Below, in pieces: positions 3,001-63,819 of a DNA stretch of 64,000 bases (the stretch's first letter is position 1; the number at the start of each line of letters is the position of its first letter). Source of the stretch: Styela clava. Its lineage: Eukaryota; Chordata; Ascidiacea; Stolidobranchia; Styelidae. A program made the translations under genes and the position numbers. The stretch lies in assembly GCF_964204865.1 (NCBI RefSeq), contig NC_135255.1, positions 20,489,135 to 20,553,134 on the forward strand. Direction: 5' to 3'. Under the pieces are notes generated by a model. That model did not search any database. It was not told where the DNA came from and saw only the letters and a program-made list of their open reading frames with translations.

Positions 3001-4040
3001 TATATTGAAATAATTCTTAAAATTCAGGATAGGTCAGATTTTCGATGAAACACGTTATATGCCCCACAAATGCTGCTTGTCTGAAACCTTATTCATAGAA
3101 AAAATTACATAAAATAAGACAGAATTAAATTGCTCAAAGAGGCACAAATTGGCAGTGATTATTCCTTTACATTTACTGGAAACAATGAAAGAGATATTAT
3201 ATTTTAACTTTGTGAGACTAATACAGGTTGTGAAGCCAAAGTTTTTTGATGTAATGATTGAAAACTTAAGCGACTTCCATATACCATATATTTGATTCTC
3301 TCAGAGTTTTGAGTCGAGTTACAAAACTTAAAATTGCCAGTTTTGCGACACTTGGAGAAAAACAAGAAAATAAAAATTTATAGTCCCTCAAATAGAGTGC
3401 TTCCAGATAAACAAACTTTTGAGAAGGCACATTGCCCACAAAAGCTAAACAAAGTCAAATTTTCCTAACCAGGAACTAACCCCATCAAACTAGTCGACGA
3501 CATTTATGTGAAACTTGGAACAAGTCAAGGATGAATAAAACTGAAAGAAATCCATAGGGTATCGTACATCTACCACTCAAGCACTACACAACGTTCACTT
3601 AAACTTCACAAGGCAATTTCTCTCAAAATGAAAGAATCTCATGCGACTTTCAGGCAGGTCATCACTTTGACATGATGAAATAGGGGGATAAATTGTGAAA
3701 AAAATTTAAAAATCTTCACAAACTTATGAAAAGCAAATCACACACAAACACTAATTGTCCACTTTTCTTGACAAAGTTTACCACTCTAGATGGAAACTTT
3801 ATATGACTGCTGTACAGGGTGTCGACACTGGCAACCAATCAATAACACGAAAAGATTGAAAAAAGTCCACAACTCTTCACAGAATATTCATGCATGCATG
3901 ACTTTAAAAAGTTATTTTCTTCTTCTAAATACGCCGCTCTTTAAAATACCATTGATGTTAGTGTTACCGTAATTCCACAGGTACTAAATGAACAAAGTTC
4001 AACCTTTTTTGACAAGGAAATATCTCTCCATATGGCAACC
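1..4040. other. Intergenic region downstream of POLR2B, no gene seen
   Basis: I see no convincing coding sequence here. What can be seen is repeat debris. About 600-860 is a degraded hAT-like remnant that shares phrases such as 'gtgtttcatccgactcacttgtgt' in shortened form with sequences near 10970-11230 and 44200-44280. A short foldback MITE lies at 1423-1532. About 2385-2640 is an interspersed repeat also found at 15300-15900 and, inverted, at 41300-41551. About 3810 carries a mariner-like end (tacagggtgt). Short open frames in this stretch overlap these repeats and look random. Confidence 0.6.
1423..1532. mobile_element. Short foldback MITE (family A, short form)
   Basis: The two ends form an inverted repeat: ggcgctccgggagtatgtg on the left and cacatacttcgggagctccc on the right. 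The arms contain the family signature 'accaagatg(g/a)cgcac'. The whole element is about 110 bp and could fold into one hairpin. Related short or long copies lie at 14370-14607, 14940-15160, 17464-17700, 35455-35575, 40355-40590, 40700-40905 and 61540-61645. No coding capacity is present, so mobility would depend on an enzyme supplied elsewhere. Confidence 0.75.
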
Positions 4041-7000
4041 TCATGTGACCATCATACGAGGTGCGATAGACATTGACATCAATTCTTGGAAGAGTAATTT
4101 GCAAGCGTACGGCATTCTAACTTGCGAGATATGGGTTTTATTTTTACACCCTCTGCATTCAAAAGTGTGAGATCGTAGATTCGCAATTGCGATTAGGCCA
4201 CAAAGATTGCAAACATGGACACGGTATGGATCAGAAGCTTCAAATAACCGCTCTCGTAAAAATTGAGCAGCACCGTGAGCGATTTGACAATCGCGTTCCA
4301 TCTCTCCGAATCGGAGACCGCCATCTCTTGATCGTCCTTCCATGGGCTGTCTGTTTAAAATTTGAACTGGTCCACGAGCTCGGGAATGGATTTTGTCATC
4401 CACCATATGTTTTAAACGTTGATAGTATGTCGGCCCAAAAAATACTTGGGTGTTGATTTTATGCCCTGTATGGCCATTGTATAACACTTCATTGCCTCTT
4501 TGTTGGTATCCATAATCATGCAAAAGATTCGAAATCTTTTGGACGTTTACTGTGTCGTTAAAAGGTGTTGCGTCACCAATTTCACCTTTATTTGCCGACA
4601 CTTTTCCCTGAAGGCATTCGATTAAATGGCCGATTGTCATACGGGATGGGATAGCATGGGGGTTGACTATTAAATCAGGCTGGATTCCTTCACAAGTGAA
4701 CGGCATGTCCTCGGAACGGTACGTAATACCACACGTACCCTTTTGTCCATGACGACTAGCAAATTTGTCGCCAATTTGAGGAACTCTGACAGAACGAACT
4801 CGAATTTTCGTGAATTTATATCCATCTTGGTTAATACTAACCATCACTTGGTCCACAATTCCAGTTTCGCTTGTACGGAGAAAAGTTGACGCGTCACGTT
4901 TTGTATAACGCCGAGTCGTGCCTTCTAATTCATCGTCATTCTCCGGAAGTGTAACTGTTTTCCCTATAACAACATCATCACCTGAAACACGAACGCCAGG
5001 AGAGATTAAACCATCGTCATCAAGTTTATCGTAAATCGCATGTCGCATTCCACTGCATGAAGATCTTTCAGGGCGTTCGAATGTTTCTTCTTGGTCGTAA
5101 GCCTTCTTGCTTTCAGCGTCTTTGTACGAACGATAAAACACGGATCGGAAAAGTCCGCGATCTATGGAACTTTTATTCACAATAATAGAATCTTCTTGGT
5201 TATATCCAGTGTATGTAGAAATCGCTACGATTGCGTTTATCCCTGCAGGAAGTTCTCGGAAACGCAAATACTCCATGGAACGAGTCGTTACGAGTGGTTT
5301 TTGAGGGTAATACAACACATGAGCTAGTGTGTCCATACGTACATGAAAATTTGTGATGTACACCCCCATGGCTTGTTTTCCCATAGCACTTTGGTACGTG
5401 TTACGTGGGGATTGGTTATGATCAGGAAACGGGATAATGGAAGCGCATACGCCAAGTATCATAGCGGGATGGATTTCACAATGAGTATACGTCGAACAAT
5501 ATTGCTCTCCTTTGTCTTGCAAGTCCTCAGGAAACATGGCAAGCATGATTGTCTCCTCTTCTAGAGTGTCAATGTATTCGACCACCCCACTCGCGACTAA
5601 ATCCTGCCAACTGTAATTGTTGTATTCACTCTCTTTAAGCAGATCAATGTGACGTTTTTTGAGCAATAATTTTTGGTTTTCAACGATCAACAACGGACGA
5701 CAAATCCTACCAGCATCAGTATAAATTCGGATTTCTCGTTCACGGATGTCTCGTACCATTGAAACTTCAGAAACGATTATATCCATTTGTCGACGTAGTT
5801 TTCGTAATGTGTTCATCAATTGGTCAGGGTCTCGATGAATTCCAACCCAACAGCCATTCACAAAAATTTTTGTCGCATCAGCGATTGCAGAGGGCGAAAT
5901 TTCTTCTAAATTTTCCATAGACCATTCTTCCAGAAACTCCAAAATTGGGCTGGGTTGTGAGCCGACGGAAATATACGCCATGAGTGCCAAATTCTTCACC
6001 AAGCCTACAGCATGCCCTTCTGGGGTTTCAGCAGGGCATATCATACCCCATAATGTGTTATGTAATTGTCTAGGTTTTGCAAGCTTGCCATCTCGTCCAA
6101 TAGGGGAATTCAGTCTTCTGAGATGAGAGAGCGTAGAAGCGTAAGTCAATCTATTAAGTACTTGAGACACACCAGCGCGAGCTTGATGCGCTTTTTTCTG
6201 GTCCCCCCAGTTTCCGGTCGCAAGAGAGTATTTTAATCCATCAGTGATTATCCTTGTTTTTATTGCAAGTTCCAGATTAAAGTCTTTTCCTCTGTCGATG
6301 AACTTTTGTGCGTAGAGTCGTACTTCTTTCATTAACATTTTGAAAAGTCCGCGGAATAAAAACGCAAGCAGAGGACCGGCAAGATCAAGACGTTTGTTGC
6401 CATAGTGATCACGATCATCAAGTTCTCTTCGTCCAAGCGCCGCCACTAGTAGGCGATTCACAATATAACCAAGAAAATAGGCTTTTTTCGTCTCGCAAAA
6501 ATCACTAATTCCGACATGAGGTAACATCTCTTTCTGGAGAATCTCACGTGCATATTTAATTCTCTTTTCTTTTGTAACTCCTGGCTTAGCACCCCGAGAT
6601 CCAATGAAATTCAACGCGACGTTTTGCTCTTGAATGACGAAAGCTTCATCTAAAGACGGTTTCACCATTTCCATAATCTCTGGATCGTCAAAATCGTAAA
6701 TAATATGTTCAAGAATATCACGATCAGACACAAATCCCAGAGCACGAAAAACGATAATAATAGGAATCTCTTGACGAATGTACGGCACTATAGCAGTAAT
6801 CCTTTGTCCAATTGCACTTTTCTTAACCCCTTGGCCACCACGAGCAAGCATATTAACCCACATAGTACTGGTGGGTCTGGAACTGTGTTCCAAACAACTT
6901 CGAATTTCGGCAGTGAAAGCATATTTTGAATCTTTCTTTTTGAAGACGTATACAGTGTTGGCGGCCATTTTTTCCTGAGCAATTAAAACTTTTTCTGACC

Positions 7001-7453
7001 CGTTAATTATAAAATAACCTCCGGGGTCAAGGGGGCATTCATTTAACTCAGTCAAATCACGATCAGTCAAGTTACTCAGTAAACAATAAGTTGATCGTAA
7101 CATAATCGGGATTTTTCCTATAAAAGTTTTTTGATGCTGTGTCTCTATTGGTTCTTCATTATGTTTTATGACTGTCTTTGTAATATCGACATAAAGAGGT
7201 GCAGAATAGGTTAAATTTCGCAGCCGTGCTTCATTAGGCATCATAGGACTTGGAGCGCCATCTTTTTCCCAATGAGTAGGCTTTGATAGATAAATTTGCT
7301 CGAATTTGAGATGGTATTTCGTAGGAGTTACGAGTTCTGTGGTGGTGTGTTGAGCTTCGGCTTGCAGTTCGATCATGGGCGCATCCTCCACGATTCTCTG
7401 CACGGACATTTGAATGAATTCATCGAAAGAGTCCAGCTGTTGACGAACGAGAC
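4041..7453 (-). CDS. POLR2B: POLR2B coding exon 2 (residues 39-1175)
   Basis: This 3413-bp exon carries almost the whole enzyme subunit without interruption. Visible landmarks, in order, are [20 protein letters not shown] in the lobe/protrusion region, [32 protein letters not shown] in the fork region, [21 protein letters not shown] at the active-site and hybrid-binding region, [13 protein letters not shown], and a C-terminal zinc site CNLC...CRGC. The protein ends [15 protein letters not shown] plus three residues, like other animal RPB2. Acceptor: tattccag immediately before 7453. Confidence 0.98.
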
Positions 7454-10400
7454 CTGGAATACAAAAATAATTCATTATTGTGAAAATTTGGATATGGTTG
7501 TTGCTCAGAGCAATTTTATAGAAATTTGCACTCACTGATCAGTGAAAAACAACGATTTCTGAGAGGCCAATAAAATACTGAATCTACTGTGCACGAAGGA
7601 AGATAATGTACACTCAATGAGAAGTGAAAGCGACTCATCTCTGAGAAAACTAGACTACTCAAATGTCAAGAGATACTATACTAATATAGAATTAGTGTGC
7701 TTTTTCATGAGAACTTGCTCAGAGCAAAGTTATGGGCACTCACTCGGTAGTAAAGAGACTCATCTCTGAGCAAAGTTACAGGCACTCACTCAGAAGTAAA
7801 GAAGACTCATCTCTGAGCAAAGTTACGGACACTCACTCAGAAGCAAAGAAGACTCATCTCTGAGCAAAGTTACAGGCACTCACTCAGAAGTAAAGAGACT
7901 CATCTCTGAGCAAAGTTACGGGCACTCACTCAGAAGTGAAGAGACTCATCTCGGAGCAAAGTTACGGGCACTCACTCAGAAGTAAAGAGACTCATCTCTG
8001 AGCAAAGTTACGGGCACTCACTCAGAAGTGAAGAGACTCATCTCTGAGCAAAGTTACGGGCACTCACTCAGAAGTGAAAAGACTCATCTCGGAGCAAAGT
8101 TACGGGCACTCACTCAGAAGTAAAGAGACTCATCTCTGAGCAAAGTTACGGGCACTCACTCAGAAGTGAAGAGACTCATCTCTGAGCAAAGTTACGGGCC
8201 CTCACTCAGAAGTAAAGAGACTCATCTCTGAGCAAAGTTACGGGCACTCACTCAGAAGTGAAGAGACTCATCTCGGAGCAAAGTTACGGTCACTCACCCA
8301 AAGTATGAATCGTTGTATACATGGAAAACTACCGGTAATTTTTTTGTGCGGTCCAGCTAGATGTCTGAAGCTGGTTATATAACCCACCGACAAAAATGTT
8401 GCACACCCCTTCTCTAGCATAATGAACTCATCACACCCTATATTGCAGACATAGTTGAATAGCAGCATTCCAATTAAATACATAACAAAAGTTTTCATTG
8501 TTTTAAATCAGACAGAACAATCCTTTTTGTTACACAATTATGACAACATTTGATAGTAAACAAAAAAAAAATTCCATTGTTATGTATACAATTAAATTAC
8601 ATCGTCTTTTGTATTATTATGTAACAATATCCTTAGGATTAATATATCTAAGATTGCTTTTATTTACAAAATTATAAAACTCTTTAATATCCCCGGGTAT
8701 CACAAGCGAAGCGCTAAATATAAAGTTACATATTTAATTTAAACTGAGTTTGTCTTTGTTATATTTTTACTCAAAACAAAGATGTGTTTGTACTAATTAC
8801 ATTAAGGGTCAAATTGGTTTCTGAAATTTCTAATAAGGGGTTGTCTTCATGGACTGTTTGAGAGGATTTTTGAGGGTTGACCCGAAGAGGTTCTACACCT
8901 CGAAATGATGTAACATCGTTCATTTTTTTTTTTTTGCGGGGGGGCCAAACATATTTTTTATATTTTATTAAAGCAGAAAGTAAGGGATGTTTTGTTTTCT
9001 TTTGTAAAGGATGTAACATCGTTCAAGGCGGCTGATTTATGCTGCATTCTTGAAAATAGAAAACCGTCCTTTGTAGCAGAATTTTCAAATTTCCAAGGCT
9101 GTAGTGGGGGGCGTCAAAAATATTCGAAATTGGTATTCGCTTCGTTAAAAAAACTTGAAATGCCTGGTTTAATAAACGAGACACTCAGTATAGAGTTACA
9201 TATTTAATTTAAACTCCATTTCTCTTTGTTTCCATTCTCATCAAAACAAAGATATGTCTGTACTGATTACCTCAAGGGTCAAATGGGAATTAGTTCCTAA
9301 ATGTTATTTATTCTTGTTTTTGGAGAAACGCTAAAAAGTTTTTTGGGGAGAGGCCTTGTGGACTTATGCTGCAAGCCAATATGCTGCAAGCACCACTTAG
9401 AAATAGAAACTAGGGACTCTTTCCTGACATTTTTCTTTTCTAAACCCTCAAAAAGTATGTAATATAGCTCAAAATAAATAGGAGTTGCACCATACGCTTG
9501 AAAATCAAAATAGATTTTAGTCCCCCGAGTGACAAGGTGGGAAGGGGAATCAAAATGGGCGTGTTTAAGGTGTATCAATAAAGCAGAGTTTTTCCAAAAC
9601 TGCAGATGCTGTGGACAACAGGAAAGTCCAAAACAAATTGAATAGTCGAATAAATTCAAAATTGAACATACTCTAGATTTCAAGAATACTTTTCGTTTTA
9701 AAATATGTCCGTTCAAGAATCTGACAGCCAGATAAAATAGGAATTTCATTCCAACTTCTGACATTAAGTAGACAGAAAACATACCAATAGACAAGAGAAA
9801 CCTTCATGAAGTAGTGGATTTTACATAATCGAACTTTAAAAGAAAATTGAAATTTGTGAAATGGCACAATAACAATGCCAAACGATTGGGCCTATTTAGC
9901 TGTAATTTGCATTTTTGAAGCCACTATAGCCATCAAAATTTTAATATTATTTGATTACACATATATGAGTAAGCTCATCAAATAACAAAATAATGCAGGT
10001 AATTATTACATCACCATTGACCAATATAACTGTGTGACTCCAATGAAAGTAGGTCATTGTGTTAGTATAATGAGCTTCCTTGAGTTCTATGTGACATTTG
10101 AACCAAATAGGTGTGAGCTCATAAGAATATAGAGTTTCAAAAGACGCAAAAGTGGGAATTTAACAAAAAAAAGTTGGGAAGCACTGCACTGTGCCATCTT
10201 GTTCATTATCACATGACTAGCAATTAATCAATACATCACGTCTACTGTTTAGCAAGTCAATTGATCTATTGCCAAAATATAAAGTAACTAAACCAAACTT
10301 TGCGCCATTACAGGAAACCTAATGTTAACAAAAATAGCTTTCACACAATATAGACAAGGGATCGCTATAAGACAAACAAGAGAGGCGTTTGACTTTCATT

Positions 10401-35699: not shown

Positions 35700-36145
35700 G
35701 GTCAAGTCGGGCCTGAAATGTCAATCATTACGTTCGGGTCGGGCCTGAAATGTCAATCATTACGTTCGGGTCGGGCCTGAAATGTCAATCATTTTGTTCG
35801 GGCCGGGAATGTCAATCATTTTGTTCGGGCCGGGCCTGGAATGTCAATCATTACGTTCGGGTCGGGCCTGAAATGTCAATCATTACGTTCGGGTCGGGCC
35901 TGAAATGTCAATCATTACGTTCGGGTCGGGCCTGAAATGTCAATCATTTTGTTCGGGCCGGGCCTGGAATGTCAATCATTACGTTCGGGTCGGGCCTGAA
36001 ATGTCAATCATTTTGTTCGGGCCGGGCCTGGAATGTCAATCATTACGTTCGGGTCGGGCCTGAAATGTCAATCATTACGTTCGGGCCGGGCCTGGAATGT
36101 CAATCATTACGTTCGGGTCGGGCCTGAAATGTCAATCATTACATT
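35700..36145. repeat. 32-bp minisatellite, about 14 copies, inside a gc-rich inverted-repeat element
   Basis: The unit is 'aatgtcaatcatta' + 'cgttcgggtcgggcctga'. A second type replaces acgttcgggtcgggcctga with ttgttcgggccgggcctgg, and the two types are interspersed. The array is enclosed by ctaagatctgaagcccgac on the left and gggctcgatcttacctc near 36440-36455 on the right, loosely inverted. This suggests the array expanded within a transposon-like element. Confidence 0.88.
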
Positions 36146-36514
36146 CTGGTCAGGCTTTTCTATTGCTGACATTTTTTAAAATAAATATATGTTTATAACA
36201 AAATAGTACTAAAACTATGTGTGAATACTAAACAAAGGAATACTTGTTATGAAAGAAATAATTTGAATAAAACAGAGAAGAAGCTGTAATGGACCTTTCC
36301 GCGACCTTTGATACCCGAAAATATTCTTTCTATACTTTACCATACCCAGCTCGGGCCTGCAAATCCAGTTAATTAGTCGGGCTCGGGCCGGGTTTAATAC
36401 CCACGGGCCCGGGTCGGGCCGACTCTGGAATTTTTGGGCTCGATCTTACCTCTAAACCCCATATTTATTTCATAAACAAAAAATTCAATTGTCTCAACCT
36501 TTTTATTCCCAAAA

Positions 36515-42500: not shown

Positions 42501-45500
42501 TTTGGTCATTTCATCGTACTTCGCCATCAACATTCGGTTCTTTGCCCATTTGCTGCCTTGTCTGATTAAAAAAAATATTCAGGTTATGCCCACTCACTAA
42601 GAAGTAAAGAAAACTCGTCTTTACGTAAGGCTACAGTTGATCACTGCAGTGTACAAATACACAGACTACAAATTAGAGCTGTTATGAACATAGAGATGCT
42701 CAAATATATGTACACAAAGTCCAAAACCAAGTAGTATAGGAATGCAATCTGTCACAGTAGACTACCGGTACTGCAGTCTTCGCAACAATCGCCAAAGGTG
42801 CACAATTCTCAATAACGTCATAGCACACAAAAAAGAATCTCATGAAAAATATCTCGCTCTCACAGAAAGTTTCGAAATGAATAAAAGCAATAGCTTTCTA
42901 GTGAAAAAAATACAATCTTTGACTTGCTGAAAATTTTAAAACTATTGGTTCTTTTTTCATAACGATAAGAAGAAAAATACAAACAAAAATATTTTTTTTT
43001 TAAATTAAATGAATAGCCCATGAATAATGTTTACTTATGCCTCAAAACAAGACTTTATTCAGCTAAAAGTAACTCTCCCTCCCCAAATATATAAAAATAA
43101 TAACTTATGAATGGGTATTCACCTATGCCTCAAAACAGCTCTTTCCTCTGCTCTCGTTTTTTCAGCGTATTTCAGTTTTTCAGCTGCTTTTACAGGATCT
43201 TTTCTTTGAAGTTCTTCAAATTCTGTTACTGATTTCTTTTCCTTCTGTTTCCGAATTATCCTGAAATATAATTTGAATATTGATACTTGATAGTTGGATT
43301 TATCACCTTTAAACTAAACATAATGCGTGATGGCCTAGAGCAGTGGTTCCAAACCTTTTTAGCTCATGGCCGCCAGATTATGCCCCCCCAACCCAAATCC
43401 CCATTGTTTACCATTCCAATGGTATTGATAGTGTTATTTTGATTGGTAAATTCCAAATCCCATTATTTTCAAACAATTCATGCTCAACAAAGTGAAAACA
43501 CCCTGTGAAATAACCTTATCAAGCAATGAAACTAAGAAGGAGAGTTTTCTTGTGGTAGGAAGTTTCACGGTTGGGAGCCACTGGTCAGTCCCATGACACC
43601 AAGGGGGTCGTGCTGAGCGTTTGGAATACGCACAACGTCGCATTTCTGATTACCCTGTGTAGGTTCGAATCCCATGCAGGAATGATTATGTATGAGAGAA
43701 TTGCTGGACTCCTCAACACCGCAGGGTGGTTCATGTAACCGCTTGTTCTTCCACCATCAAGTCCATGCTTTGACATGGTAACCGGACCAGAAACGTTCGT
43801 TCGCTATATTATTAATCCGTCTTATCGACTTTCCTTATCCCCCCGAACAAATATGTAAATCCCATCCTAATAAGTTAGGTAGGAAATGATTCCAGTTCTC
43901 TCAAATATTAAGTAAATCGGAAACTAAAAAATGTACATAGGTACCTCAAATGCCTTCTGCTTTTTATTTTTCCTAATCTTCTATTCTTAGCCTCATGGTA
44001 TGAGAGTAGCGCTCGATGTTTTTGTAGTTCCGCACGTCTACGACGGGCTTCCTGAATTCCGATTGATTTCAAGGCTTCTTCCTCTGCAACAGAAAGTCCG
44101 TTTTCCGATCTCTCTTCGTATTTGTTACCCTGAAGAAATTTTTTTATACTCAAGTTAAAAAAATGGTATGCACTTAGATCAGGGGTGAGCAAATTACAGC
44201 CCAGGCCGCATCCATCCGACCGAAGTGTTTCATCAGGCTCACTTGTGTCTGCTGGAAATATGACTCTGATTTTTAAGGATATAAATTTCCGTTGAGGATA
44301 TAGATCAGGGTGGTCCAAACCCAGGCCCGCGGGCCACATGTGGCCCGCCGCTTCATCTGTGGCCCGCGTCACATTCGGAAAGTAATCAAAAAATCGCATT
44401 TCGTGTTGTTTTGTCATAAAATTAATCAGAAAAATCTTTTGACATATTGTCATCACTAATGTCACTGAATTAAATAGTGTTATGGCTAGTTGGGGAAACT
44501 AGCGAAGTTTAGTGATGTGCTTGGCAGTCTAAATTGTTATCTGGCTTTCTAACTTTTTGGTCAGGAATATATGCTAACAATATAGGCATCAGAGAAAACT
44601 AAAAATCGAATGCGGCTACTATTAGCCTAGAATGGCTATGCCTGATAACTATGTGTTTGCACAATAAAACTGTTTGTTTTGTATTGCACTGTTTACCTAT
44701 TTTTGGCACTATTGTGGCCCGCGAACAATGCAAAAATAATTTTGTGGCCCGCGGAGCCGACAACTTTGGACCACCCTGATATAGATGAAAATAACGCCAT
44801 AATGACCCCAATCGTTACACTGTGCATCTTTTTATTATTTAAACGTTGGCGGTTGGACTATTCAAACTGGAAAGAACGGAAAGTTTTCTTGTAAAGTAAA
44901 ATCAGTTCTACATCTGGCATTGTGACCCTCTGAAACTGCTATGTGGCCCCTGATTGGAAACCGCTGGTTTAAGCAATTACTGTTTATCTTCATTTTTAGG
45001 CATTTTTAATTTCAACCTTTTATTTTAGGGAATAATAGCGCGCAGGGTGGCGCTAACGCGCAATAAACGAAAGATGGGTTGTTGCGTTTTAACAAGGGTG
45101 TCTAAAATCTAAACGCACAATAAATGCCGTAGTGTAGCGCTAACGCGCAATAAACGAAAAATGGGTTGTTGCGTTTTAACAAGGGTGTCTAAAATCTAAA
45201 CGCACAATAAATACGCGCGGTGTAGCGCTAACGCGCAATAAAGGAAAGATGGGTTGTTGCGTTTTAACAAGGGTGTCTAAAATCTGAACGTACAATAATA
45301 GCGCGCAGGGTAGCGCTAACGCACAATAAGGGAAAGATGGGTTGTTGCGTTTTAACAAGGGTGTCTAAAATCTGAACGCACAATAATAGCGCGCAGGGTA
45401 GCGCTAACGCACAATAAAGGAAAGATGGGTTGTTGCGTTTTAACAAGGGTGTCTAAAATCTGAACGCACAATAATAGCGTGCAGAGTATTCCCTACTCAA

Positions 45501-56691: not shown

Positions 56692-57732
56692 CAGGGGTTC
56701 CCAAACCTATTTAGTCGCGGGCCAAAATTTTAAGGCGAGGATACTCGGGGGCCAGTAAAGGGGAGTGACCAAAAGAGCGCGACGTAACGGCTGGCGCTTG
56801 AATGCGCCCTGAAATTTTTTCTAAAAAATGGGCACGAAAATAGGGTGCAAGATTGGTTTTAGATACACGCAGTATCGCAGTTTGTTATGAAATAAAATTA
56901 ATAAGTATAATAGTTAGATGATAGAATACCCGAGAAATAACAAGTACGACTTTCAACAAGGACTTGCAACTGATAGCGACTAATGAAGTTACTTGCTCAT
57001 CTGAAATACGGCTCCTTATAAATGGCTACTCATATCATAGTCAAGTTTAATTTTCCATCCAGTAAAAATAACAAACAAAATTATGAGAAAAGTAAAATTG
57101 ACACACATTTTTACTGGAAAGCGAAGTCTCTGGGAACTGATTATTAAGCAGCGACACCCAAGGTTTGATATCTAATTAGGTTTGTAGTTGACTTTTTTTG
57201 AACATGTTCGTTTGACTTTTATATGAATCTAACAATGAATTAAATTTTGAAATACGCCGCTCACCCGTCAAATGATCGTAATTTGAAGAATGCTTCGTCT
57301 CATAATGGCGCTTGATGTTGTATTCTTTCAGAACAGGAATAGTTTGTTGACAAGGAAGACAAATCGCTGAAGTTTGATTCTTTTCAATAAAGAAATAAGA
57401 ACGCTGCCATTTATCCAAAAAACGTCTGTTTTCAGTGTCTAGTTTTCGTTTTTGTGACATCTTCAAGCTTTCTTAATATAGTGCTGATAACTAAAATACT
57501 GCCGTACGTAATCCTATTATAATTGAATTTTTATGATTATACACGCGCTCGAATTGTGGTAATGACGTAACAATTGGCGGCAACTAACAATTGACGCAAA
57601 AAGATGAACACATTTAAATTGTTAAACGTATTAGTATTTATTCGCTTTATAGTTTCACTAATGTTCGGCGGGCCATTTTAAATCGTCTTGCGGGCCGTAA
57701 TTGGCCCGCGGGCCGCGGTTTGGGAACCCCTG
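56692..57732 (-). mobile_element. hAT-like element (1041 bp) with perfect 8-bp target duplication and zinc-finger ORF
   Basis: Ends caggggttcccaaac and gtttgggaacccctg are perfect inverted repeats. Flanks are ccataaac at 56684-56691 and 57733-57740, perfectly matched. 'cgggcc' motifs are repeated near both ends. The only ORF with recognisable content is the 96-codon zinc-finger frame at 57176-57466. The catalytic part of a hAT transposase is absent. Confidence 0.92.
57176..57466 (-). CDS. N-terminal zinc-finger fragment of a hAT-type transposase
   Basis: The 96-aa frame starts with Lys/Arg-rich residues, then FLDKWQRSYFFIE, then a zinc motif CLPC-x14-H-x4-H (residues about 37-59, with EYNIKRHYETKH). 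This arrangement is typical of hAT-derived proteins such as GTF2IRD2, ZMYM6 and EPM2AIP1. The RNase-H-like catalytic domain and dimerisation region that should follow are missing. It lies inside the transposon at 56692-57732, so it is either a relic or a short DNA-binding product of a deleted element. Expression is unknown. Confidence 0.7.
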   Translation of the reverse strand: MKMSQKRKLDTENRRFLDKWQRSYFFIEKNQTSAICLPCQQTIPVLKEYNIKRHYETKHSSNYDHLTGERRISKFNSLLDSYKSQTNMFKKSQLQT

Positions 57733-58647: not shown

Positions 58648-58827
58648 TTATATTTCACAGATAACACCAAACCTAAGATAGTGTGATGGAACATTGAAAA
58701 TACCCTGATCTGCATTTTCGTCTTTATTGATACTAAGAGCAACATTTGTCCACGATGTAGCGGATTTGGGATAGCTATCAATCCACACTTCATTTGGTAG
58801 AGCTTCCCCTCCCAAAAGCTGATTGTT
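58648..58827 (-). CDS. C-type lectin gene, terminal coding exon
   Basis: Acceptor ttttttacag, then 59 codons and TAA. The sequence starts NNQLLGGEALPNEVWIDSYP and ends HYLRFGVICEI, the C-terminal half of a C-type lectin domain with the last conserved Cys three residues from the end. It is in phase 0 with the donor at 59270. Confidence 0.85.
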   Translation of the reverse strand, partial: NNQLLGGEALPNEVWIDSYPKSATSWTNVALSINKDENADQGIFNVPSHYLRFGVICEI

Positions 58828-61800
58828 CTGTAAAAAATTAATAAACAGCTTTAAAATAGGATATAATAGAATTTACATAATTTATCGCGGGTGAAAGCAA
58901 AGTCGAGAAAACGGTTTAATCATATGACAAACCAGGGCCTCTCGTCCGGTTACCAATCCATGTCGGGTATGGGATTAGTCGGCCAGTTATATGTTTACGG
59001 ACGCATGGACTTGATGGTTGATAAAGACGACCAGTGGTCACGTTAACCACCCTACGGATGCGAGGAATCAAGCAATCCTCTCGCACACAACCATCCCCGA
59101 ATGGGATTCGAACCTGCGAACCCACGCCGGGTAGTCAGAGGTGCGATGGCGAGCGTATTCCTAACGCTTAACACGATGAACCACACCGCCTTCCCCTCTT
59201 GCTTAGTTTTGAGACAAAACAAGTTAAAATCTGTGTAGATTACGCAAATTTGCTACTCATTACACCTACTTTATACTGCATCCCAGTCCAAATAAAAATC
59301 GAAATCCGGCCAGCAGGGATCATTGAACGTAGATAAGTGAGCAGCATCTGGTAATGTTCAAAGTCGTGAATATTAGCCGGTATCCTGTTGTTCATTGATT
59401 TGCATATTGATCGAGCATCGTTGAAGGTGATATTCTGTGTTTTATACATAACTGCTCGGAAGCACTTGGAATTGTATATGACACCACAACCCCCTAAAAA
59501 CAACAAAATTGGGGTCATTTTAAATAATCACATAATCATAATCACACAGCGATGAAGTACCAGGTCATGATTCAGTTTGTGCCACATCTTGGTGCGCATA
59601 CTTCAGGAGTACCCATACTTGAGTATACGAATTAAAGCTGGATTCAAACATATGCGCCATGAAAATGCTAACTATCTGACAGATGTGGCGACCTTTTAGT
59701 CAGACTACCAAACCACAAAATACAAAAGAATTTACTGCTAGCCTTTTCTTTCTCATCAAGACTCTTTTTGATCAGTCTGGCGATTTCTGTAATAAAATGA
59801 CGTATTTTTGTTGTATGTATAAAAGTTGTTTTTTAAATCAGTTTTCTATTTATACAGTTCATATTCATATTTTACACTTTTACGCATATTACCTCACGCA
59901 CCTTTGCCCATCAAAATATATATAAATAATAATTTGAGAATGACATATAAATTGAAGGTCAAATAAGAGTGAAATGTTTGTATTATCATCATAATTTTAT
60001 TCATCAAACTAAGCAACTAAATCATCCCTATGACGTGCTGGTTGACCCCGGTCATTTGAAATGAAGAGTTGCTCCTTATATATCATGGGATATTAGTGTC
60101 TGCGCGTACAGTGGCTTGTTTGGAGGGGAAAGGCATAAATATGCGTCGTTTCAAAAAGACAAACTTGGAATTTATCTTGAAATAGGGCGAACTCACCGGA
60201 TCCATCGTTTTTCTGTCAAATAAAAACAAAATACAGGTCATCAGTAAAGTAATTATGACACGTTTCTATGCTGGATTTAATTCAAGAGTCTTTCTAATAA
60301 TGCAAACAGCGGCCCCACAAGGAAAAATTGTGCTGCCATCGGAAACGTTCCGATTTTGAATTGTGCGCGGCTCGCATAACGAGGTTTCAGTTTAGTCAAG
60401 TGCATCGTTTCCCAACGTTTTTTGGTCGCGGACTATTTTTTCGCCAGCGAAAATCTTTGCGGACTCAAGTTTCTTTAATTGTAAACGAACCCTGTGTGGA
60501 GAAACAATAACACCAAAAACAACATAATTTTAACGAAGTCTGTTCATTATTCACATTTACAAATTTTGAATGGGAACCTTGTCTCTGAACTCGCATCACT
60601 AGTTTGTCAAAATCAGAGTCTTTATTCGATAACGCACATCTAATTGGACAAGTAGTGGACATACGGTCGTTTCAATATTATGTTGATCTTGTTCTTGTTG
60701 TTATTTGACACAGAATAACACACTTAGTGGAAATATTAAAAAAAACGCCTTTTTCTTCGAATACTGGACCAATTGCTTTGAAATTTTCAGTGGTTGAAGA
60801 TAAAATTTTTCCCCAGAAGGCTAATACTTTTATTTATTTTAAATATTTCTGTTAGCTCTGTGAGATTTGTTTTTGTTTGCTATGAAGTCATTAAACGCTC
60901 TGCGGACATCGGACGCCATTTTGTGTCCTACTGTAGCCTACTGCTTCGCTCGGTGTGAATATATTTGTAGACTGTGATCTGACGGTACACCGTACTGTAC
61001 TGCGAACAGACGTGTCCATATATTTGGGCGTAGCTCTCTTGTGTTATCTTCTGGTTGCAGTTGTTTGCCATACTTGGGTTTTTATCATAGCCAGGGCTGT
61101 AAATACAGCTTTGCAAAGATAATATGCTGAAAAGTGCAAAAGAGCAACGCAAATATAACACTCAATTTTTACGTTTTTGTCCGTAAGCTGAGGGTGCGTC
61201 TCATGTTTTTGTCAGAAATCCGCAGGTACGCTGTGCAATCCAATCGTTTGATATAGCGAGGCGGGAATGACGTGCCGTGTTCAAGTCACGTGTTACAAGG
61301 TATGCTAAGTTTAATGTTCGAATATTTTACCCAGCCATACTCAGTAACCGGTAATTATTGACTCGATTAAATTTTATGTGAATAAACTTTTATTTTATGT
61401 TTTTCGTGAATTCTGACGTAAATTGTAACTGATACGTCCGTTTATGCCCGCAATGAATTTCTAAACGTGGAAGTGGCCTGCGACACTAAAAAGGTTAGTG
61501 ACCTAGGCTACATGAACTATATTACTGCATAGCCTTCGGACCTCCCGAAGTATGCGCACCAAGATGGCGCACAACCTGAACTCAGGTGTGAAGTACCAGG
61601 TCATGATTCAGGTTATGCGACATCTTGGTGCGCATACTTCAGGAGTACCCATACTTGAGTATACGAATTAAAGCTAGATTCAAACATATGCGCCATGAAA
61701 ATGCCAACTATCTGACAGATGTGGCGACCTTTTAGTCAGACTACCAAACCACAAAATACAAAAGAATTTACTGCTAGTCTTTTCTTTCTCGTCAAGACTC

Positions 61801-63819
61801 TTTTTGATCAGTCTGGCGATTTCTGTAATAAAATGACGTATTTTTGTTGTATGTATAAAAGTTGTTTTTTAAATCAGTTTTCTATTTATACAGTTCATAT
61901 TCATATTTTACACTTTTACGCATATTACCTCACGCACCTTTGCCCATCAAAATATATATAAATAATAATTTGAGAATGACATATAAATTGAAGGTCAAAT
62001 AAGAGTGAAATGTTTGTATTATCATCACAATTTTATTCATCAAAATAAGCAACTAAATCATCCCTATAACGTGCTGCCACTATGCCGGTCGACCCCGGTC
62101 ATTTAAAATGAAGGAAGAGTTGCTTCTTTGATATCATCAGATATTAGTGTCTGCGCGTACAATGGCTTGTTCGGAGGGGAAAGGCATAAATATGCGTCGT
62201 TTCAAAAAGACAAACTTGGAATTTATCTTGAAATAGGGCGAACTCACCGGATCCATCGTTTTTCTGTCAAATAAAAACAAAATACAGGTCATCAGTAAAG
62301 TAATTATGACACGTTTCTATGCTGGATTTAATTCAAGAGTCTTTCTAATAAAGCAAACAGCGGCCCACAAGGAAAAATAGTGCTTCCCGCGGAAACGTTC
62401 CGATTTTGAATTGTGCGCGGCTTGCAGAACGAGGTTTCAATTTAGTCAAGTGCAGCGTTTCCCAACGTTTTTTGGTCGCGGACTATTTTTTCGCCAGCGA
62501 AAATCTTTGCGGACTCAAGTTGCTTTAATTGTAACCGAACTCTGTGTGGAGAAACAATAACACCAGAAAAACAACATAATTTTAACGAAGTCAGTTCATT
62601 ATTCACATTTACACATTTTGAATGTGAACCTTGTCCCTGAACTCGCACCACCACCGTTGTCGAAATCAGAGTCTTATTCGATAACGCACATCTAATTGGA
62701 CAAGTAGTGGACATACGGTCGTTTCAATATTATGTTGATCTTGTTCTTGTTGTTATTTGACACAGAATATCACACTTAGTGGAAATATTAAAAAACCGCT
62801 TTTCTCTTCGAATACTGTACCAATTGCTTTGAAATTTTCATTGGTTGAAGATAAAATTTTTCCCCAGAAGGCTATTACTTTTATTCGTTTTAAATATTTC
62901 TGTTAGCTCTGTGAGATTTGTTTTTGTTTGCTATGAAGTCATTAAACGCTCTGCGGACATCGGACGCCATTTTGTGTCCTACTGTAGCCTACTGCTTCGC
63001 TCGGTGTGAATATATTTGTAGACTGTGATCTGACGGTACACCGTACTGTACTGCGAACAGACGTGTCCATATATTTGGGCGTAGCTCTCTTGTGTTATCT
63101 TCTGGTTGCAGTTGTTTGCCATACTTGGGTTTTTCAGAAATCCGCAGGTACGCTGTGCAATCCAATCGTCTGATATAGCGAGGCGGTGTTCAAGTCACGT
63201 GTTACAAGATATTCTAATAGTTTAATGTTCGAATATTTTACCCAGTCATACTCAGTAATCGGTTATTATTGACTCGATTAAATTTATAATGAATAAACTT
63301 TTATTTTATGTTTTTCGTAAATTCTGACGTAAATTGTAACTGATACGTAAGTTTGGTAAAACCGTTTATGTCCTGCGATGAATTTCTAAACGTGAAAGTG
63401 GCCTGCGACACTAAAAAGGTTAGTGACCTAGGCTACATGAACTATATTACTGCATAGCGTTTATAACCTATTACTCGTTGCGGACTCATTCAAACGCTCT
63501 GCGGACACATTTGAGACCGCGGACGCGGGTTGGGAAACACTGCACGTGCGAGTAATACCAATCCCTTTCCGTTGCAAAGTCGATAGCCGAGTCCTTTTTT
63601 ATAACGTCATAATGCTCTAACAGTTAGTTTGTGCGAAGCGAACAACGCATGTCCTAGAACAGTAATCAAATTTTTGTGCCTAACTAAGAATTTACTAAAG
63701 ATGTATGTTTGATGTACGAAATGTATAAAGACACCTGATAAAATAGCAACATAATTTTACCTCGCAATCTCCAACTTGAACGAGTTTCCCATTCACGATC
63801 TTGGAAACGCAGGCTCCAG
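58648..63819 (-). CDS. C-type lectin-domain protein, 3' part (5' end beyond window)
   Basis: Secreted or cell-surface lectin-like protein, ligand unknown. Proposed minus-strand exons are 63819-63761, a 16-nt microexon (62263-62248 or its identical copy 60212-60197), 59493-59270 and 58827-58648. The joined frame runs GACVSKIVNGKLVQVGDCE, KNDGSG, then the lectin domain with CGVIYNSKCFRAV, ITFNDARSICKS, FIWTGMQYK, VWIDSYPKSATSW and the final FGVICEI before TAA. Cysteines and the WIGL-like and W positions fit the C-type lectin fold, but EPN/QPD and WND calcium-sugar motifs are not evident, so sugar binding is doubtful. The first exon shown starts in mid-codon, so at least one more exon, probably with the signal peptide, is outside the window. 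Confidence 0.8.
58880..59190 (-). mobile_element. tRNA-derived SINE (family S) in the last lectin intron
   Basis: On the minus strand the head is ggcggtgtggttcatcgtg, then 'aagcgttaggaatacgctcg', the B-box ggttcgaatccc, the body 'accatcaagtccatgcgtcc' and 'gtaaccggacgagaggccct', and the tail 'ataaattatgtaaat'. It is the most complete copy in the window, about 310 bp, and in the same orientation as the lectin gene. Confidence 0.82.
59270..59493 (-). CDS. C-type lectin gene, first lectin-domain exon
   Basis: Acceptor gtttttag before 59493, donor gtaggt after 59270. It begins with two bases of a split Gly codon and reads GCGVIYNSKCFRAVMYK, ITFNDARSICKSMNNRIPA, HDFEHYQMLLTYLR and ISIFIWTGMQYK. 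The split codon needs one base from the preceding exon; the exon at 63819-63761 ends in phase 0 and cannot supply it, while the 16-nt microexon can. Confidence 0.88.
59558..61532. repeat. Tandem duplication, copy A (about 2 kb)
   Basis: This block is almost identical to about 61596-63460, offset 2036-2051 bp with small indels. It begins within a family A MITE ('gtaccaggtcatgattcag') and ends at 'actatattactgcatag'. It contains the microexon copy at 60197-60212 and most of a hAT-like element starting near 60402. About 120 bp around 61085-61205 is missing from copy B. Open frames such as 59683-59925 occur in both copies with one residue difference and are not recognisable proteins. Confidence 0.93.
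60197..60212 (-). CDS. Candidate 16-nt lectin microexon, copy A
   Basis: tttgacag / AAAAACGATGGATCCG / gtgagt: a full acceptor and a consensus donor around 16 bases. It encodes KNDGS plus one base of Gly. Sixteen bases supply exactly the phase shift needed between the exon at 63761 (phase 0) and the exon at 59493. Without it the lectin frame is lost. Confidence 0.65.
61540..61645. mobile_element. Foldback MITE (family A, short form) at the duplication junction
   Basis: Left arm ggacctcccgaagtatgcgc and right arm gcgcatacttcaggagtacc are inverted, with inner arms accaagatggcgcacaacc and ggttatgcgacatcttggt. The right half also begins copy A at about 59558-59620. The junction of the tandem duplication therefore lies in this element. 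Confidence 0.8.
61596..63460. repeat. Tandem duplication, copy B (about 1.9 kb)
   Basis: Near-identical to 59558-61532. It continues past the shared 'ctgcatag' into 'cgtttataacctattactcg' and the intact right end of the hAT-like element, so B keeps the original right flank. Differences from A are scattered single bases and short indels, consistent with a recent event. Confidence 0.93.
62248..62263 (-). CDS. Candidate 16-nt lectin microexon, copy B
   Basis: Identical in exon, acceptor and donor to 60197-60212. Using both copies in one transcript would add 32 bases and break the frame. One of the two must be skipped or used alternatively. Confidence 0.6.
62453..63542. mobile_element. hAT-like element in the lectin intron (1.09 kb)
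   Basis: Ends cagcgtttcccaacgtt and gttgggaaacactg are inverted, followed inside by 'tggtcgcggactattttttc' and 'tttgagaccgcggacgcg'. The 8-bp flanks (gtcaagtg, cacgtgcg) do not match clearly. Copy A has the left end at about 60402 but lacks the right end. No transposase is encoded. Confidence 0.6.
63761..63819 (-). CDS. C-type lectin gene, upstream coding exon
   Basis: Acceptor atttaacag before 63819, donor gtaaaa after 63761. It starts with two bases of a split codon and reads GACVSKIVNGKLVQVGDCE. Two Cys fit a short N-terminal segment preceding a lectin domain. The split codon shows at least one further exon to the right, beyond the window. Confidence 0.7.

Follow-up and report, generated by a model that had tools for sequence, protein, structure and literature searches.

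The window analysed here, 64,000 nucleotides of the Styela clava genome, carries on its minus strand what appears to be one gene belonging to a large lectin-like family; its start resembles a signal peptide, and a 2-kb tandem duplication lies within its run of introns. The exons, splice sites and phases can be read directly from the sequence and are given below, together with the two halves of the duplication.

C6:20553976-20553907, just outside the window: first coding exon of the gene model, 70 nt, signal-peptide-like start (by eye)
63761-63819, minus strand: exon A, 59 nt, GACVSKIVNGKLVQVGDCE, needs one base at its start and ends in phase 0 (AG/GT sites in 25/30 fetched paralog stretches)
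62248-62263, minus strand: microexon m1, 16 nt, phase 0 to 1, KNDGS + G (AG/GT sites, genome-wide family match)
61772-61822, minus strand: exon C1, 51 nt, phase 1 to 1, EIARLIKKSLDEKEKTS (51 nt with AG/GT sites in 25/30 fetched paralog stretches)
60197-60212, minus strand: microexon m2, same letters as m1 (AG/GT sites)
59736-59786, minus strand: exon C2, 51 nt, EIARLIKKSLDEKEKAS (by comparison with C1 and with paralogs)
59270-59493, minus strand: first lectin-like domain exon, 224 nt (genome relatives by translated match)
58648-58827, minus strand: last coding exon of the gene model, 180 nt, ending ...FGVICEI stop
about 61580-63453, minus strand: duplication copy A, holding m1 and C1 (alignment)
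about 59551-61533, minus strand: duplication copy B, holding m2 and C2 (alignment)

Microexons are exons of up to about 27 nt, and the original prediction placed two identical 16-nt copies of one, with intact splice sites, at 62263-62248 and 60212-60197. Both are present there on the minus strand, identical at 16/16 positions, each preceded by TTTGACAG and followed by GTGAGT; in the alignment, the splice sites and near flanks of m2 equal those of m1 letter for letter. Within the window AAAAACGATGGATCCG has two matches, against 0.04 expected from shuffles when two mismatches are allowed. Across the 376.6-Mb assembly (379 contigs), a pattern of the microexon plus splice sites, with at most three mismatches, occurs at 85 sites or more, m1 and m2 included, and the reversed control at none; genome match counts are lower bounds, diverged sites being uncounted, and at least one of the 85 sites (C5:1143959) has no GT donor. 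When the segment was compared with its flanks against the genome, two of the best 40 of 57 candidates scored were the window's own. The 16-nt segment looks like a family-wide microexon and a real coding exon. A chance match or plain dispersed repeat was ruled out, as in each of the 23 paralog stretches having all three elements the segment comes after exon A and before exon C and is flanked by splice sites. Two other roles were rejected by eye: a start-codon exon, whose ATG frame hits a stop early in exon C, and a spliced-leader exon, the full acceptor being kept in paralogs.

The family was followed in 30 fetched paralog stretches, one of which (L035) is the window gene itself, under a strict AG/GT rule. 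A single 16-nt microexon match (at most three mismatches, AG/GT) is found in 26 of them, and exon A, one microexon and one 51-nt exon C occur in that order in 23. The other seven comprise L029 with exon A and microexon only, L036 and L037 with exon C only (probably because these stretches end too early), L041 and L052 with none of the three, L038 with the microexon, and L047 with exon A and microexon. By eye, the last two also have a 45-nt form of exon C (L047, oriented position 3571; L038, oriented position 3721), whose donor lies six bases earlier; its length is still a multiple of three and the frame is kept. An extra microexon match in L054, with five mismatches and encoding a stop, was dropped as chance. 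A match to the first-exon region lies upstream of exon A in 24/24 paralogs tested, L055, which also has exon A, being left out, and the exon order of the family is signal-peptide exon, A, microexon, C and lectin-like exons. For exon A with its flanks, 74 genome candidates were found and the best 40 scored, its own locus included. L055 holds an in-frame stop inside exon A (L055:802-860), and for this reason may be a pseudogene.

The introns next to the microexon are also conserved. Ungapped majority identity in ten-base bins, over 26-27 sequences including the window gene, runs upstream from far to near at 0.61-0.95 for the microexon, 0.39-0.92 for exon A and 0.47-0.87 for exon C, and downstream from near to far at 0.90-0.66, 0.84-0.50 and 0.92-0.62, respectively. 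The microexon has the best-conserved flanks in 9/10 bins, with exon C ahead in the first downstream bin. Because ungapped counting penalises indels, this is suggestive, and no more, of intronic signals serving the microexon.

Exon C was overlooked in the original prediction, which joined the microexon directly to the lectin-like exon at GGGGTTGTGG. That junction is open (182 aa), but exon C intervenes in 23/30 fetched paralog stretches, and as the main form it is most likely wrong; the gene model is corrected here to include exon C, intact in each half of the duplication. At least 68 exon C matches occur genome-wide, C1 and C2 included. These two differ at two sites, at both of which C2 has the state common among paralogs, so C1 looks like the derived copy. 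From the sequence, the duplicated unit is a two-exon cassette of 16 + 51 nt, and the proposed choice between two microexons holds in part: the frame does need exactly one microexon, but with exon C following the microexon and itself included in the duplication, the choice would be between two-exon cassettes.

Between exon A, which ends in phase 0, and the exon at 59493, which needs one base, a single 16-nt copy puts the frame right whereas 32 nt disrupts it, as had been proposed and as the computed splice forms bear out. Thirteen forms were computed, of which five are open to the end and eight have an early stop. With one cassette, the first exon (70 nt), A (59), microexon (16), C (51), lectin-like exon (224) and last exon (180) yield 199 aa, and A-m1-C1, A-m1-C2 and A-m2-C2 are each open at this length. 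A-m1-C1-C2 is also open, at 216 aa. When everything is included (A-m1-C1-m2-C2) the product is 80 aa, with a stop at codon 81 that lies, by arithmetic, 244 nt before the last exon junction, and A-C2, lacking a microexon, stops after 47 aa. The frame thus tolerates exactly one microexon, and exon C once or twice. Exclusivity as read from these sequences would be a property of the open reading frame, distinct from the behaviour of the spliceosome.

Such an arrangement appears only once among the matched family sites. Among the 85 microexon sites there are 11 same-strand neighbours within 8 kb, four of them within 5 kb; comparison of two lists places a listed lectin-like match between the neighbours in 10/11 pairs, which are for that reason separate genes, the window pair alone being without one. 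Among these sites, two microexons before one lectin-like exon are accordingly found in the window gene only. By eye, a doubled exon C before one lectin-like exon occurs, among the 68 C sites, in the window pair and one other gene, L056:1434-1714 (C5:3736433-3736713), where a single microexon is accompanied by two C exons spaced by 230 nt, matched at C5:3736440 and C5:3736670. These copies differ at one base, and the second has a poor pyrimidine tract, so it may be unused. Elsewhere in the genome (G000), contig C2 carries two opposite-strand microexon pairs, 9065391(-)/9067808(+) and 9196926(-)/9199345(+), each spaced at 2.4 kb; the two lie 131.5 kb from each other and probably reflect the duplication of a divergent gene pair.

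The 2-kb tandem duplication of the original prediction is present in the assembly, its halves similar rather than identical, and it is the only direct repeat of more than 1 kb in the window. Copies A and B differ by 65 substitutions over 1833 aligned sites (3.6%) and by 14 gaps, and a 129-nt stretch of copy B is missing from copy A; at about 1.8% change per copy, the duplication would be fairly young. The divergence is patchy. The longest identical run, 282 sites, was reached by 3/5000 permutations, and the sum of the top three, 697, by 0/5000. Four runs are of at least 100 sites. Among them, 62351-62173 contains m1, 62027-61792 contains the greater part of C1, and the 282-site run, 63169-62888, overlaps in part with a high-copy repeat. 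Such patchiness could result from gene conversion or from an allelic mosaic. Three repeat features lie at or near the boundaries of the copies.

61535-61649, minus strand: palindromic high-copy repeat, MITE-like, intact, about 115 nt, ending 1 to 5 bases before the start of copy B
59553-59613, minus strand: left part only of the same palindrome, at the end of copy B (read off the alignment)
62452-63542, minus strand: transposon-like insert in the intron before m1, with inverted ends CAGTGTTTCCCAAC...GTTGGGAAACGCTG (ends read, pairing computed)

The best 40 of 1588 candidates scored for the junction palindrome mostly cover query positions of about 5-13 to 123-128, and the stretch 61660-61520 folds as a hairpin at -81.8 kcal/mol. 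The insert, which we take to be hAT-like, contains a high-copy repeat at about 63096-62695 (best 40 of 4006 candidates scored). Copy B starts within it and lacks about 90 bases of its 5' end, while both inverted ends are present around copy A. Breakage at the junction palindrome would be a reasonable cause of the duplication.

The account we consider rather more probable than not is that the reading frame and mRNA decay enforce the use of a single two-exon cassette. The duplication would have copied a cassette consisting of a frame-changing 16-nt microexon and a frame-neutral 51-nt exon C; transcripts with one cassette (m1-C1, m2-C2 or m1-C2) would encode the 199-aa protein, and those with both would be thrown out of frame, reach a stop at codon 81 and be lost to nonsense-mediated decay. 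Exclusivity would then arise after splicing, by way of the frame, and the protein would be nearly the same for either copy (one Thr/Ala difference). Use of the exons in mRNA, decay of the two-cassette form and activity of the gene are what we infer from this structure. The 600-nt coding sequence has no lesion, where neutral change since the duplication would be expected to bring about 2.7 disabling lesions, with a probability of none of 0.07, at per-lineage rates of 1.8% for substitutions and 0.38% for gaps at each site, and assuming that 80% of coding indels disable and that 20 splice bases matter; this lends weak support to an active gene. Exon-defined splicing with equally good sites is expected to include both cassettes, and inclusion of both by default would leave most mRNA unproductive, which counts against enforcement by frame and decay. 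The patchy divergence also counts against it, and the intact frame, at a probability of 0.07 under these assumptions, is weak evidence of activity.

Skipping of m2 alone would make A-m1-C1-C2 the main product, a 216-aa protein with a 17-residue helix-like segment doubled. That form is in frame without a stop, exon C being frame-neutral; tiny exons are often skipped, and L056 shows exon C alone doubled in tandem in another family member. However, the splice sites and near flanks of m2 have the same letters as those of m1, and the second exon C of L056, with its poor pyrimidine tract, may be unused, so that we hold this outcome to be unlikely. A crippled gene, giving mostly decayed mRNA and drifting to a pseudogene, would fit the break in frame when all exons are included, and the family does contain a member with a stop in exon A (L055); the absence of any lesion despite the 65 substitutions and 14 gaps since the duplication makes this very unlikely.

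The remaining alternative, which we judge decidedly unlikely, places the error in the assembly, with two alleles of one cassette set in tandem. The 3.6% divergence, 14 gaps and long identical runs would fit two alleles as well, a fit that presumes a highly polymorphic animal. Against it, the junction has no homologous overlap and lies at the end of a complete palindrome, the right half of which is missing at the end of copy B. Nor was a leftover haplotig seen: apart from its own locus, the 201-nt exon A region is best matched over 112 bases at 92% (best 40 of 74 scored), and the lectin-like exon shares at most 68% protein identity with any other (best 150 of 540 scored). The contig is 24.3 Mb long, and no second direct repeat of this size lies in the window. 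Taken together these points weigh against an allelic artefact, none being decisive.

The repeats could in principle act as a ready-made splicing switch, each pairing of transposon-like arms leaving exactly one cassette in frame, although we hold this to be highly improbable. Pairing of the insert's 5' arm (about 63566-63500), which is unduplicated, with the 3' arm in copy B would loop out m1-C1, and pairing of the right arm of the junction palindrome with the left arm in copy B would loop out m2-C2. Because these long-range pairings cross each other (63.5/60.4 and 61.6/59.6 kb), both could form together only as a pseudoknot. The palindrome right arm pairs with its own left arm at -83.1 and with the copy B arm at -79.7 kcal/mol, compared with a best of -56.2 among 300 draws of random 100-nt partners; the insert 5' arm pairs with its own 3' arm at -52.3 and with that of copy B at -48.1 kcal/mol. 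Free folding of 4.1 kb gave 43/52 local palindrome pairs, 17/50 local insert pairs and no long-range pairs. Forcing the long-range pairs costs 24.2 kcal/mol for the palindrome and 13.7 for the insert, all local pairs of both repeats 13.8, long-range insert with local palindrome pairs 17.3, and local insert with long-range palindrome pairs 34.3. An arm-based switch is possible in these models yet unfavoured by folding, its palindrome half least of all; if true, a single duplication step would have both disturbed the frame and supplied the remedy.

Exclusion of tandem exons by the reading frame has been described before, and enforcement of this kind here would be an ordinary case of known exon duplication. 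In human, non-3n exons occur in 377 (60%) of the clusters of mutually exclusive exons (MXE) (PMC5740500). U2AF1 transcripts that include exons Ab and 3 together, or that lack both, contain stops and undergo decay (PMC5224494), tandem duplicated exon events have been surveyed in human (PMC9741552), and competing RNA structures arising from tandem duplication have been proposed under a docker/selector model (PMC6071210). As in frame/NMD-enforced MXE so described, a tandem non-3n exon gives a premature stop on joint inclusion; both copies of the microexon and of exon C keep AG/GT, and joint inclusion and joint exclusion of the microexon both break the frame, while exon C alone may double in frame. 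In contrast to U2AF1 and the human MXE, a frame-neutral exon is here duplicated along with the frame-changing one to form a two-exon unit, and the copies are so alike in coding sequence that choosing between them alters one residue at most. The docker/selector model is resembled in that one unduplicated arm faces two duplicated partner arms that flank the cassette, for two inverted repeats; the present case differs in that transposon-like ends form the arms, a docking arm sits between the two copies, and the long-range pairings are unfavoured by folding. The 16-nt exon, with its conserved intronic flanks, resembles other microexons, but appears obligatory in the family rather than optional, because skipping breaks the frame (as computed for the window gene). 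Four phrases for a duplicated microexon had no match in the open literature searched, and a search combining microexon, ascidian and lectin returned only an algal genome and nothing pertinent.

What is distinctive here is the two-exon unit, of which one exon forbids double use and the other permits it. The duplication shows how tandem exon copying meets the reading frame, the microexon forbidding doubling where its neighbour allows it, and the single microexon in 26/30 paralog stretches lets the family serve as a natural experiment, with genes before and after duplication, for asking whether the frame and decay are by themselves enough for such a gene to stay functional.

The lectin assignment is weak by sequence, and the term ‘lectin-like’ is kept throughout. 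A Pfam search of the 199-aa window protein returned no families at E up to 1, a search of solved structures gave no match for the lectin-like protein, and the window gene is absent from the 151 genome Lectin_C matches listed (150 of 697 candidates scored). Of nine family members compared with Lectin_C (PF00059), two match, with a best E of 0.0037, the window member giving an unrelated sub-threshold match only. A family profile from nine of 12 assembled proteins, some with a doubtful last-exon start, aligned over 100 columns with nine clear Lectin_C domains of the same genome at an E of 0.0011 and a probability of only 20.7%. The lectin-like exon itself has 540 genome candidates, the best 150 of which were scored, its own included, and encode a relative.

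Downstream of the last exon of the lectin-like gene, at 57200-57460, lies a frame with a Spin-doc type zinc finger, probably a transposon remnant. Minisatellites occupy 7718-8305, 35706-36155 and 45034-45488, with units of 46, 32 and 88 bases, respectively. At 4044-7481 the window also carries an RNA polymerase Rpb2-type subunit with seven Rpb2 domains; its 1146 codons form a single frame without interruption, an arrangement that seems unusual among animal genes.
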